A DNA stretch of 39,074 nucleotides from an uncultured Lachnospiraceae bacterium (GTDB lineage Bacteria; Bacillota; Clostridia; Lachnospirales; Lachnospiraceae). This document shows, in pieces, positions 33,349-38,440 of the stretch (position 1 is its first letter; each line of letters starts with the position of its first letter). The stretch is from contig CANPZR010000003.1 in assembly GCA_947589175.1 (NCBI GenBank), positions 1 through 39,074 of the forward strand. Direction: 5' to 3'. The notes below the pieces were generated by a model, which saw only the letters and a list, made by a program, of their open reading frames with translations, ran no database searches and was not told the origin of the DNA. The position numbers and the translations under genes were made by a program.

Positions 33349-35079
33349 ATGATAGATAAAAATGATGATATACAGCAAAGGAATATCGATTTATTAATAG
33401 CAGGATATTGGTATGAGGATTTACCACCAGTTATAGATATAGCAAACATGAAAGGAAAGATAAAGGGAATTATTGAAAAGATTGATAATGATATATATGA
33501 TGACTTTTATAAAACGGATGGAATAATAACTGAATATAAAAATACACAGGCACCATCATATATATTTAATGACGGGATAGAACCTATAACTTTTTTTGAA
33601 TTTAAGAAGAATGGTGCATTGAGAGAAATGCAGATTCCCAATTTGAAGTATTATTGTACATTTGTTTATAACACAATTGCTGTCTATGATGAACTGTTTA
33701 GTAAACTGTATAGTGAGCCGGAATTTGATAAATATGTTTGTAATTCAAACTCTTATATATTATTTAATGAACTGTTTCATATTTATAAATTGTATGATGG
33801 AAGTGAGGAAATTATTGAGAGTGGAATATTTGCTGTAAAGAATAATAAAACTACGGGGCAACTTGCACATGAAGAGAATAATGTAAGATACTTAAAAAAG
33901 CAAGGTGCTAAATTATATTCAGTTAAAGTTGATATAGAGTCATTTTATCCCAATGTGTATACGCATTATCTTAGTAAAATTAAAGATGCTGAGCCATATA
34001 AAGATAATATTTGCTGTGACACTTATTTTGACTTTTTGGATTATTACAATATGAAGATAAATAATAATCAGACAAAGGGAATTGTGACAGGAGTTTACTC
34101 TTCGACAATATCAGCGGAGTTGCTTATGTTATGTGTGGATTACGAGATTAATAATGTTATAGGTGATGAGGTGTCGTACATTCGATATGTTGATGATTTA
34201 ACTTTTTTTTCAGATTCTTTAGAGGAAATATATTCCAAATTGCCATTAGTACAAAGGGTTTTGAATAAATATAGGCTTAGAATAAATAACAATAAAACAG
34301 AGACACAAAAGAGCATATATAATATGTCATATGTTGATATGTATGAGTTGAAGAAGAGATTTGATTTTTTCGATTTTGATTCTACTGATATTATAAAATA
34401 TGATAAAGAGGTTTTTTACAATATTAAAGGATATGTGGCTAGAGCATATGACAATAATCTAAAATCTGAAATAAAAGCATTCTTATCAATGTTTAGAAGA
34501 GCTATTAGTTTGAAAAAACTTTGCTTTGATATAGATGAGAAAATTGACTTAAAAAAACATACTGTAGCATATATGGTACAGTTGGCTTGTTTGGAACCGA
34601 TATTTGCATCGCGTTGCTATAGGGTTATCATTTCTATATTGAATTTGATTGATGAAGAGAATAAAAAAGATGAAATAGTAAAATTGCTGAAATCAAAAAA
34701 TGATTTTATAAATGCAACATATCATGATTCGCTTTTGCAGATATGGCATTATTATGTTTTGAGTACGTATGACGCTAAATCCAATATTAAAGAGTTGATA
34801 GATAGTTTTGGAAGCGATGAAATAAATCCGATTATCTTAGCAGGATTTGTAAAAGAAAAAAATGCAGCTAATAAAGAATTGTTTGATTATATAAAAAAGA
34901 CTTATTCTTCAATTGTATATAAAGAAGGAGAGAGTTCTTATTGGATGCGAAGCATTATGTTTTCAAAATGGTGGTTACCATTGCTTGTTATATATTTAAA
35001 GGATGGTAAGGACTATTCTCAATTTTATGAAAGCCAACATTTTCATGAAATTTACAAGGAAATGAAAGAGGATAAATAA
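33349..35079 (+). CDS. Reverse transcriptase of the UG/Abi (defence-associated) type with C-terminal helical domain
   Basis: Motif A 'LYSVKVDIESFYPNVYTHYLSKI', motif B 'KGIVTGVYSSTISAELLM', motif C 'YIRYVDDLTFF', then 'LRINNNKTE'; about 230 aa helical C-terminus, no visible intron maturase or endonuclease domain. Confidence 0.8.
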   Translation: MIDKNDDIQQRNIDLLIAGYWYEDLPPVIDIANMKGKIKGIIEKIDNDIYDDFYKTDGIITEYKNTQAPSYIFNDGIEPITFFEFKKNGALREMQIPNLKYYCTFVYNTIAVYDELFSKLYSEPEFDKYVCNSNSYILFNELFHIYKLYDGSEEIIESGIFAVKNNKTTGQLAHEENNVRYLKKQGAKLYSVKVDIESFYPNVYTHYLSKIKDAEPYKDNICCDTYFDFLDYYNMKINNNQTKGIVTGVYSSTISAELLMLCVDYEINNVIGDEVSYIRYVDDLTFFSDSLEEIYSKLPLVQRVLNKYRLRINNNKTETQKSIYNMSYVDMYELKKRFDFFDFDSTDIIKYDKEVFYNIKGYVARAYDNNLKSEIKAFLSMFRRAISLKKLCFDIDEKIDLKKHTVAYMVQLACLEPIFASRCYRVIISILNLIDEENKKDEIVKLLKSKNDFINATYHDSLLQIWHYYVLSTYDAKSNIKELIDSFGSDEINPIILAGFVKEKNAANKELFDYIKKTYSSIVYKEGESSYWMRSIMFSKWWLPLLVIYLKDGKDYSQFYESQHFHEIYKEMKEDK

Positions 35080-35195
35080 TTTCTTTTTCATATAAAAGAG
35101 AATTGCTACAATATATTCAGGAAAATGAAGAACATGGAATGAAGCTCTAAGTAGAGTATTATAATAGTTAATTGATGTAAATTGGAGGCGATAGA

Positions 35196-36581
35196 ATGAC
35201 AATTGAATTTATGAGAGACTTGCTTTCAAAAGATGAAAAAATAACAGTAGAATACAAAACCTGTCAGCATGGTGTTCAGGAAGATGTGTATGAAACGGTG
35301 TGTTCTTTTTCTAACAGATATGGTGGTTATATCATCATGGGTGCGAAAGATGATGGAACGCCAATAGGCATTAACCGGAATATGGTTAAGGATATGAAGA
35401 AAAACTTTGTGAATCAACTCAATAATCCGGATAAGATGTCCCCAACACTATATCTTTCATTAGAGGAATTGGAATATGAAGGAGTGTTGCTTCTGTGGGT
35501 ATATGTGCCACCCACATCTACAGTAGAAAAATGTGCGAATAGGATTTATGACAGGAATGAAGATGGTGACATGGATATTACAGATTCGCCGATTCAGTTG
35601 CAAAATATGTATAACAGAAAAAGTAATACATATGCGGAGCATAAGATATTCCCATATGTTACAACGGAAGATCTACGCATGGATTTGATGGATAAAGTAA
35701 GAAATCTTGCAAAGAGTAAAAATCCGGATCATCCTTGGCTGAAAATGTCTGATGAGGAAATATTGAAGAGTGCAGGTTTATGGGAAAAAGATTTTTCATC
35801 AGGCATCCAGGGATATAATCTTGCCGGAGTACTTTTGTTTGGTAAGGATGAAGTAATACGTTCCTGTTGTCCGGGATATATTACAGATGCAATTTACAGA
35901 GTCGAAAATTTGGATAGATATGATGATAGATTGCAGGTAACAACAAATCTGACAGAGGCATATGAACTTCTGATGGATTTTGTGGCAAAGCATACTTCTG
36001 ATAAGTTTTGTCTGGTTGATAATGTAAATACAAGCATTAGAGGCATTATTTCCAGAGAAGTAATTGCAAATATTCTTGTGCATAGAGATTATTCCAGTGC
36101 TTTTCCGGCAAAGGTGATTATTGAAAAGGATTGGCTAAAAACGGAAAACTGGTGTATACCAAGACGTCATGGCAATATTATGAGTGATGAATTTACACCA
36201 TATCCTAAGAATCCATTGATACAGCAATTTTTTGCAAATATTGGTAGAACTGATACAATTGGTTCCGGTGTACGAAATCTATATAAATATACACCAATAT
36301 ATTCTGATGGTGGTAAGCCGGAATTGATTGAAGATGATGTGTTTAGAATAACCATTCCTTTGGACAAGGTGGCTGCCGACGAGGGAAGAGAACAGAAAAC
36401 TTTATCTGAAAGAGAACAAAAAATTTATAATATGATTTGTGAAAACCTGCACTTATCGGTTGAACAGGTAATGGCAGAACTTGATATATCAAGAGCAACG
36501 GTATTCAGAGACTATGCTAAAATCAAAAAAGTAACAGGTGCAATGTATGACAAAAAGACATCGACATGGACTTTGGATTGA
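35196..36581 (+). CDS. AlbA_2 (Schlafen-like) N-terminal domain, GHKL-like ATP-binding C-terminal region, terminal HTH
   Basis: 'VEYKTCQHGVQEDVYETVCSFSNRYGGYIIMGAKDDGTPIGI'; 'ISREVIANILVHRDYSSAFPAKVIIE', 'NPLIQQFFANIGRTDTIGSGVRNLYKYT'; HTH 'LSVEQVMAELDISRATVFRDYAKIK'. Confidence 0.85.
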   Translation: MTIEFMRDLLSKDEKITVEYKTCQHGVQEDVYETVCSFSNRYGGYIIMGAKDDGTPIGINRNMVKDMKKNFVNQLNNPDKMSPTLYLSLEELEYEGVLLLWVYVPPTSTVEKCANRIYDRNEDGDMDITDSPIQLQNMYNRKSNTYAEHKIFPYVTTEDLRMDLMDKVRNLAKSKNPDHPWLKMSDEEILKSAGLWEKDFSSGIQGYNLAGVLLFGKDEVIRSCCPGYITDAIYRVENLDRYDDRLQVTTNLTEAYELLMDFVAKHTSDKFCLVDNVNTSIRGIISREVIANILVHRDYSSAFPAKVIIEKDWLKTENWCIPRRHGNIMSDEFTPYPKNPLIQQFFANIGRTDTIGSGVRNLYKYTPIYSDGGKPELIEDDVFRITIPLDKVAADEGREQKTLSEREQKIYNMICENLHLSVEQVMAELDISRATVFRDYAKIKKVTGAMYDKKTSTWTLD

Positions 36582-36593
36582 TAGGATTGACTT

Positions 36594-36767
36594 AGTCTCA
36601 AGTTAGTCTCAACATAGTCTCATGAGATTTGATACCGGATGAGACCGAATAAAGCGGTAGAAATGTGATAAAATCGGCATTTTTTCAAAAAATAAGAGAT
36701 AATTAGTCTCAAGTTAGTCTCACGTAGTCTCATTTTGGAGATGAGATTTTGAGACTGAGTTGAGACT
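36594..36767. repeat. Array of AGTCTCA heptamers phased at about 11 bp: two direct triplets and one inverted doublet
   Basis: AGTCTCA at 36594, 36605, 36616, 36705, 36716, 36726; TGAGACT at 36750, 36761. Confidence 0.9.
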
Positions 36768-36820
36768 GGGGAAATTATCATAAGATAATTAGAAATATGC
36801 GATACAGGAAGGAAAAAGAG

Positions 36821-37591
36821 ATGTGGGCACAAATTGGTAATTGGCTATATCAAAATGCAATGGCTATTTTCATTTCTGCGATTGCATCATTGTTAATATC
36901 AAAAAGATATTACGACAAAGCAAATCGCGAAAGTGTATTTATGACGGTTATATTTCCAATCGTTAAATTGTTGAATCAAAGATATTATACACGTAAGGAC
37001 TATGAAGCACTTTTTGAAATCAATTCTTCTTATGCTGTTAAATATCTTCGAAAAAAGGAAAGAAATAAGCTACTAGAATTGTTAAGTGCTTATAGAGATG
37101 TATGTAGATATAGTAAAGAGGGTGCAGATACAAGTTGTATTATGGCATATTATAATTTTAAGTTGAAGGAGAATGGCGTTAATCCTAAACCATGTACAAT
37201 AAGAGATGATGACGGAGAAGTGGTAGCAGATGATTTTCCGCCTGATTATAATTATTTGCAAGATTATGTGTATGAAATAGTTTCCTCATATGATTTTATA
37301 GAGTCACCAGATGAATGTGCTGTGAAAATTGCGGATGCGTTTAAACGTTATACCAAAAAATATTATACTGATAAGAAAATAGTATATTTCGAAGATTATT
37401 CCATTGAGAAAGTGATTGAATTGTCAGAAGTTTCTAAGAAATGGAATGAAAAATTTAGGTTGGCAGATGCGAGCAAGGAGGAGTTTTTAAAATTACCTAT
37501 ATGTAAAAAAGTGAAAGATATTATTGATGAGTCAAGTGTTAATGAATATGTTAAAAGTAAGAAAGCAACAAGGTTGGAAAATAGCAATTGA
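36821..37591 (+). CDS. Hypothetical protein with N-terminal TM and cytosolic helical domain
   Basis: ATG at 36821 preceded by aggaagg; 'WLYQNAMAIFISAIASLLIS' TM; no recognised family. Confidence 0.65.
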   Translation: MWAQIGNWLYQNAMAIFISAIASLLISKRYYDKANRESVFMTVIFPIVKLLNQRYYTRKDYEALFEINSSYAVKYLRKKERNKLLELLSAYRDVCRYSKEGADTSCIMAYYNFKLKENGVNPKPCTIRDDDGEVVADDFPPDYNYLQDYVYEIVSSYDFIESPDECAVKIADAFKRYTKKYYTDKKIVYFEDYSIEKVIELSEVSKKWNEKFRLADASKEEFLKLPICKKVKDIIDESSVNEYVKSKKATRLENSN

Positions 37592-37615
37592 ACATTGTAG
37601 GAAGGATAAGTGGAT

Positions 37616-38440
37616 ATGCAGGATAAAGAAAACAAGGACATAATTGATAGTCAAGGAAATGTTTTGAAAAGTACAAAAGATAATAGGGTCAAACAATTTT
37701 TGAAAGATAATGTATGGAATATTTTGAGTACTGGTTTGGCTGCATGTATTACTTTAGCAGGAATGATGAATTTGGTGATTTCAAAAAGCTTTTCTATTTC
37801 ATGTTCGAATTTTTATGGAATAGATGAAAAATATTTTAGCGGAACAGAAATGTTTGAGAACAAATTGATTTTTGTTTTTTGTGCATTGCTTTTGTTTGCT
37901 TATCCGTTCATATTCTCATACATGAATAAAAAAATGAATAGCAAACTATATGTGGTATTGACATTTCTTTTAACGATATATATTTTATTTGCCCAAAATA
38001 TATTATATACGATTAACCTAATAGAAATTATTCCATGGGCATGGTTGAGACGATGTATAGACAATTATACAACGATTGGAGTGTTTTTATTTGTCGATAT
38101 AGTGATAGCATATTTTATAATAATAAGGAATTTCTTTTGGAAAAATAAGAAATACAATATGGGTGGAAAGATAATATTAGCAATAGCGCTGATACTATAT
38201 GTTTTGAATGTAGTTACAGGAATTGCAATTAAAATAGACTATGAAATTAGTGACAAGAAAGCATATGAGGTTATTGAACAGAATAGAGCTATAGTATCGA
38301 ATTATGATGGTAAATTTGTAGTTATGAATTGTGAAATACAAGGCGAAACTATTATTTTAAAAAAGGGTACATATAGTTTGGAGGAGATGACAGGGGTTTC
38401 AATTACATATCACAAATATGAGAAAGTAATTTGTGAGTAA
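37616..38440 (+). CDS. Hypothetical multi-TM protein (about 5 TM segments)
   Basis: Hydrophobic segments 'ILSTGLAACITLAGMMNLVI', 'LIFVFCALLLFAYPFIFSYM', 'LYVVLTFLLTIYILFA', 'IGVFLFVDIVIAYFIIIRNFF', 'IILAIALILYVLNVVTGIAI'. Confidence 0.65.
   Translation: MQDKENKDIIDSQGNVLKSTKDNRVKQFLKDNVWNILSTGLAACITLAGMMNLVISKSFSISCSNFYGIDEKYFSGTEMFENKLIFVFCALLLFAYPFIFSYMNKKMNSKLYVVLTFLLTIYILFAQNILYTINLIEIIPWAWLRRCIDNYTTIGVFLFVDIVIAYFIIIRNFFWKNKKYNMGGKIILAIALILYVLNVVTGIAIKIDYEISDKKAYEVIEQNRAIVSNYDGKFVVMNCEIQGETIILKKGTYSLEEMTGVSITYHKYEKVICE

Follow-up and report, generated by a model that had tools for sequence, protein, structure and literature searches.

A Site Array Behind a Schlafen-Type Gene as the Probable Cognate Site Cluster of the Winged Helix-Turn-Helix Domain Encoded by That Gene

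Introduction

The window, a stretch of DNA of 39,074 nucleotides, contains a compact array of the motif AGTCTCA and its inverse TGAGACT. The array lies between a Schlafen-type gene and a pair of genes for membrane proteins. Its position raises two questions, namely which of the adjacent genes the array belongs to and what recognizes it.

The array was compared with those of two sets of relatives. In 200 genomes of the same family (Lachnospiraceae), clustered pairs of AGTCTCA were sought. A further 80 loci were examined, which are the best matches and not a random sample. Many of the compared loci come from metagenome assemblies. The automatic array finder chose the wrong motif in two loci (L086 and L090), and both of these arrays were read by eye.

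Results

The Array in the Window

All eight copies of AGTCTCA or TGAGACT in the window are packed into 174 bp, at exactly the positions listed in the first-pass annotation, and none occurs elsewhere in the 39 kb (Table 1). Whole-window shuffles contain a mean of 3.5 copies, dispersed over the 39 kb. The source assembly (2.72 Mb, 81.5% complete) has no tandem pair of the form AGTCTCA-N3..5-AGTCTCA outside the array. The first site is located 12 bp 3' of the stop codon of the Schlafen gene.

A 20-nucleotide sequence, TTAGTCTCAAGTTAGTCTCA, occurs twice in the array. The repeat is exact, as had been reported, and its copies begin at 36592 and 36703, one base before the starts given earlier (36593 and 36704). 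Once imperfect inverted copies are counted, each half of the array starts with direct sites and continues, after a short gap, with inverted sites. At the second inverted place of group 1, three relatives (L072, L073, and L074) have an exact TGAGACT. An Rfam search gave nothing beyond one match at chance level.

Table 1. Features of the Schlafen gene and its array, with positions in the window.
Feature	Position	Strand	Basis or remark
Cassette (ribosome-binding site, gene, and array)	35180..36767	+	blastn against G131, G135, and G086
Schlafen AlbA_2, GHKL-ATPase-like, winged-HTH gene, 461 aa	35196..36581	+	Pfam, AlphaFold2, Foldseek
Array group 1, three direct AGTCTCA sites (36594, 36605, 36616), spacing 11 bp	36594..36622	+	exact matches, window scan
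Group 1 imperfect inverted sites, TGAGATT (36623-36629) and TGAGACC (36640-36646)	36623..36646	-	
Inter-group spacer, conserved core AAATGYGATAAAATCrGCATTT	36647..36702	no strand	core kept in 9 loci
Array group 2, three direct AGTCTCA sites (36705, 36716, 36726)	36705..36732	+	exact matches, window scan
Group 2 inverted sites, TGAGATT (36742, imperfect) and TGAGACT (36750, 36761)	36742..36767	-	exact TGAGACT matches, window scan

The Schlafen-Type Protein

The protein encoded upstream of the array matches two Pfam families, SLFN_AlbA_2 (PF04326, E 8.7e-15) and HTH_DeoR (2.3e-5). An AlphaFold2 model of its 461 residues is confident, with a mean pLDDT of 86.7. The domain order given by Pfam and AlphaFold2 is AlbA_2, a GHKL/histidine-kinase-like ATPase region, and a DeoR-type winged helix-turn-helix (HTH), which corrects the earlier order of AlbA_2, HTH, and ATPase. 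In the model, the HTH is composed of helices at residues 405-416, 422-429, and 433-447, and a wing at 450-459. The last of the three helices (RATVFRDYAKIKKVT) is the recognition helix.

The best Foldseek match is 3LMM (E 2.6e-19), followed by the nuclease domains of SLFN14, SLFN13, and SAMD9. Matches to SLFN14, SLFN8/13, and SLFN5 chains place the N-terminal domain among AlbA_2 domains. The catalytic residues of rat SLFN13 are E205, E210, and D248 (PMC5862951). These align with E14, E19, and D52 of the window protein, in which the three-acid active site is therefore present. Across 52 homologues, E14, E19, and K21 are invariant, and position 52 is D or E in 49. The window protein is a putative Schlafen RNase.

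Limits of the Conserved DNA and Neighboring Genes

In blastn comparisons with relatives that have other surroundings (G131, G135, and G086), DNA homology begins at approximately 35179-35190 and ends at 36758. The genes that flank this cassette vary between loci and are mostly defence genes. In the window, a gene for an RT_UG31 reverse transcriptase (33349-35079, E 1.5e-122) is located directly upstream of the Schlafen gene; it is of the DRT type (UG/DRT) and is a candidate for DRT-type defence. At other loci, the upstream neighbors are type I restriction, HerA, GajB, HamB, or NERD-helicase genes. There is no sign that the array takes part in the DRT system, as the array also accompanies the Schlafen gene beside other systems. 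A tie between the array and the RT_UG31 gene was rejected because the cassette follows other defence genes elsewhere.

The sequence between the reverse transcriptase and Schlafen genes (35085-35160) is a relic of another gene's 3' end, which closes with ...YIQENEEHGMKL. At locus L082, the ORF upstream still ends intact in this stretch, which suggests that one defence gene has taken the place of another upstream of the Schlafen gene.

Because the flanking genes vary and the conserved DNA spans the region from the ribosome-binding site to the array end, the array is assigned, on this comparison, to the Schlafen gene just upstream and not to the neighbors.

Arrays at Homologous Loci

Clustered AGTCTCA pairs are present in just a handful of the 200 family genomes, and in most of these they lie behind this Schlafen gene or its 3' remnant. 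Full-length relatives with the same architecture and an intact HTH number 18, and all 18 have an array directly after the stop codon. Ten of these arrays are spelled AGTCTCA, four AGTGACA, and four otherwise. Two genes with a premature stop (L083 and L080) still have the array. At two loci (L075 and L076), which are 84-85% identical, the recognition helix is degenerate (SRAAVFGIYGKI) and the array is absent. Two genes that end before the HTH (L157 and L158) have no array in the 260 bp 3' of the gene. The comparison of these loci shows that gene and array are linked and that predicted HTH function and the array are absent together.

The L075 and L076 genes adjoin pilin-like (prepilin-like) genes and appear to be recruited to another role. 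The window's own genome contains a distant paralogue (L007) that has a different array (AGTGGTCA/TGACCA) after its stop codon, on the reverse strand.

Arrays without an intact gene also exist. Array-only loci came from searching for arrays, and in five genomes (G103, G120, G068, G188, and G112) the array is kept with a gene end that is truncated on the 5' side. At L207 and L208, the Schlafen gene is replaced and the AGTCTCA array stays, with related integrase or NUDIX-HTH genes present. In L207 (5049-5465) and L208 (4965-5336), the array is located directly 5' of a small gene (MDISKKDWKLFRE...), although no matching Schlafen gene is left. Further Schlafen genes, broken or intact and with arrays of their own, are upstream.

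Arrays Inside or Before the Gene

In distant relatives (Firmicutes, spirochaetes, Bacteroidota, and Methanosarcina), the array is mostly in the linker between the ATPase and the HTH. Methanosarcina (L130 and L134) and Bacteroidota (L138) provide examples. Of 75 homologues, 58 have an array score above the highest value of the control from the same gene. The preferred spacing is 11 bp in non-coding arrays and 12 bp in coding arrays, as though the helical repeat had been adjusted to codon length. In 20 of the 45 in-gene arrays the spacing is no multiple of three, and a single DNA word is read in different frames, such as CAAGCGA in L105 (three frames) and TTGCCGA in L116. Selection therefore acts on the nucleic acid, and an explanation of the linkers as protein repeats was rejected on account of these frame-rotating spacings.

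Three relatives (L098, L102, and L103) have the array directly 5' of the start codon. In the Streptococcus satellite phage Javan72 (L218, approximately 1240-1485), two groups of GTGTGCGAA repeats are directly 5' of a Schlafen-type gene that adjoins an integrase gene. An operator at the gene's own promoter is not the general arrangement, since the window array is 3' of the gene and upstream arrays are confined to L098, L102, L103, and Javan72.

In L114 (1351-1460), an in-gene array of 11-bp units is followed by a stop, with the HTH just behind it in another frame; a change in the copy number of the units would shift the frame and possibly switch the gene on or off. In a Mycoplasma prophage (L216, 2001-3737), a module of array and HTH is tandemly repeated at the C-terminus, and reading TGA as Trp would join the copies.

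Motif Spelling and the Recognition Helix

Homologous genes thus have, behind or inside them, arrays of the kind that the first-pass annotation had proposed seeking, with a spelling that tracks the recognition helix. With all pairs written on one strand, helix SRATVFRD accompanies motif TGAGACT, TRRTILRD accompanies TGTCACT, SRSTVQRE accompanies TGAAGCT, SKKTASRE accompanies a TGTCTCT-like motif, and SDRTIDRE accompanies GGCGACT. This co-variation of site and recognition helix is as in autoregulatory winged-HTH proteins with their own operator.

The same helix and motif are shared by distant loci. SRST[VI]QR with TGAAGCT is common to L088 and L089, where the array follows the stop codon, and to L113 and L117, where it is in the linker. 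RRGVEW with CTGTGGA is common to L123 (Treponema) and a gene in L139 (Elusimicrobia), and SEKTITRY with TGTCCCTC to L028 (a genome of the Lachnospiraceae family) and L216 (the Mycoplasma prophage). Over 63 loci, motif similarity has a partial r of 0.40 with HTH identity and 0.14 with core identity (permutation p 0.001), a Mantel correlation that is inflated because the array adjoins the HTH-coding sequence and helix and motif are inherited together. The distant pairs are stronger evidence than this correlation, part of which is shared descent. Recognition of the array by the predicted HTH of the Schlafen-type protein is strongly supported by the comparison.

Discussion

A Protein That May Assemble on Its Own Gene

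The reading that we favor, with a probability of roughly 0.6, is that the array is the cognate site cluster of the winged HTH and that the protein assembles on its own gene, most likely silencing or holding itself. Each 7-bp site would serve one HTH as a half-site. With sites spaced by a helical turn, several subunits would line up along the same face of the DNA, and a second row, facing the first, would occupy the inverted sites. The array would be encoded in cis within the transcription unit of the gene, after the stop codon in the window, in the linker in most relatives, and before the start codon in a few. Cooperative assembly of the protein on its own gene would keep expression of a potentially toxic RNase low, and the assembled pool would stay inactive until a signal related to infection acts through the ATPase domain.

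From the comparison we infer binding to DNA and not to RNA, cooperativity, silencing or holding, and a role in defence. DNA is favored over RNA because both orientations of the site occur, the helix with which the motif changes is one that reads DNA, and RNA structure is absent from the coding arrays. Blocking of a promoter alone does not account for every case, because the array may precede, interrupt, or follow the gene; cooperative assembly that either silences the gene or holds the protein would cover every position. Three observations speak against the favored reading. An array 3' of the stop codon cannot act as a simple roadblock to transcription of its own gene, and arrays that persist with a truncated or replaced gene may point to another use or to slow decay. 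In addition, the window's gene and array have no nearby promoter signal that rises above chance.

These persisting arrays, together with the lack of any intact gene that has a working HTH and no array, would fit a DNA safety catch. The nuclease would be inactive on its own array and freed when a phage degrades, replicates, or strips that DNA, and a short stretch of chromosome would be both the sensor and the antidote of a suicide enzyme. Such a catch is unlikely, though not far-fetched.

Alternative Explanations

A second possibility, and a doubtful one, is that the array is the operator of a promoter from which the membrane-protein pair (36797-38440) is expressed and that the Schlafen protein is its dedicated regulator. 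The next ORF begins 30 bp after the array end, and the spacer between the array groups is conserved, with two of the nine loci that keep its core lacking a Schlafen gene of the window type. At L192 and L203, the same array, without this Schlafen gene, is directly 5' of the same small gene (MDISKKDW...). Against this, the genes downstream of the array are unrelated between loci, begin 84 to approximately 1900 bp away, and are convergent in seven of the listed loci, so a conserved co-directional target is missing. DNA conservation ends with the array, the array is within the coding region in most relatives, and scans for promoters and terminators near the window's gene and array gave no signal above shuffles. 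A dedicated operator of the next gene was rejected because of this diversity of neighbors. The earlier proposal of a nucleoprotein assembly site for the HTH protein is well supported by the comparison, and the implied role as operator of the membrane-protein pair is not supported.

An RNA element is improbable. At the mRNA level, the array would provide hairpins or tandem repeats that the Schlafen RNase recognizes or cleaves, comparable to the repeat RNA of type III toxin-antitoxin systems. Positions in the 5' leader, the coding linker, and the 3' end could all be within the transcript of the gene. Folding of the window array as RNA is far stronger than that of its shuffles (z -5.55), and L087 forms a strong hairpin (z -6.67), in both cases because of the inverted sites. 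Folding is not unusual in five coding arrays (z -1.6 to +0.5), for which reason an RNA hairpin was rejected as the common principle. In addition, identical motifs occur in both orientations, direct and inverted sites are unequal in number, the spacers of the putative stem in the window pair inconsistently, and the motif tracks the HTH recognition helix, an element that reads DNA.

A site for recombination or mobility has similarly poor prospects. Gene and array would form a mobile cassette that ends in the array and is moved by the AlbA_2 nuclease or by repeat exchange. The extent of the DNA homology between loci, the intact arrays behind truncated gene ends, and the exchange of the gene at L207 and L208 beside related integrase or NUDIX-HTH genes are consistent with this. 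The truncations were found partly through a search based on arrays, the putative cassette has no demonstrated target duplication or insertion site, and arrays in coding regions are not at a cassette end. Integron gene cassettes have fixed boundaries, an attC site, and an IntI-type integrase; the edges here are near the gene start and the array end, and neither the left nor the right boundary falls on one fixed base.

Functionless repeats, kept by chance after slippage (to which short tandem repeats are prone) or as protein repeats in a tolerant linker, are scarcely credible, because one sequence is kept across genera, the reading frame rotates in coding arrays, and the motif is bound to the helix class and lost jointly with the HTH.

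Significance and Comparison with Known Systems

If the favored reading is correct, the putative antiviral nucleases of a widespread bacterial and archaeal family have the array that they bind encoded in cis. This array would often be hidden in the coding sequence as a 'repetitive linker', which would account for a peculiarity of these proteins. The DNA sequence bound would be known for many members without experiment, and the loci would provide a natural series of helix-to-site recognition for winged HTH domains, as well as a hint at how a potentially toxic immune effector is restrained. In the literature searched on AlbA_2, COG2865, and Schlafen-like bacterial proteins, which did not include a preprint about antiphage defence by bacterial Schlafens, no description was found of a self-array or of the apparent pattern of differently spelled cis arrays in or next to Schlafen-type genes across bacteria and archaea.

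Bacterial Schlafen RNases fused to a minimal histidine kinase and a winged HTH have been described next to BREX systems in at least 1017 taxa, as putative back-up RNases (PMC12839542). The window protein is like these in the order of AlbA_2, GHKL-like ATPase, and winged HTH, in the conserved catalytic acids, and in the adjacent defence genes. The difference is that the text of that paper is silent on direct or tandem repeats, operators, and autoregulation. Among solved structures, DIP2311 of Corynebacterium diphtheriae (PDB 3LMM) is nearest in fold along most of the protein, at 16% identity.

No ParM/ParR-type genes were found among the neighboring genes examined. The parC centromere of plasmid R1 is composed of 11-bp repeats in two direct-repeat groups, spaced at approximately one helical turn. 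The window array is alike in grouping and spacing, and the site and the protein are of another family.

In type III toxin-antitoxin systems such as ToxIN, a nuclease gene adjoins tandem repeats, as it does here. Unlike the structured antitoxin repeat RNA upstream of the gene in those systems, the array is 3' of the gene or inside it at nearly all loci. Most of the repeats come after the gene or split it, both orientations are seen, and the match is to the HTH and not to an RNA fold.

Lambda O and the RepA_N plasmid initiators have intragenic iterons, which are direct-repeat sites inside the gene of their own binder that give specificity in cis. The arrays described here share with them the direct-repeat sites in the putative binder's gene; the protein is a nuclease, ATPase, and winged HTH in place of a replication initiator.
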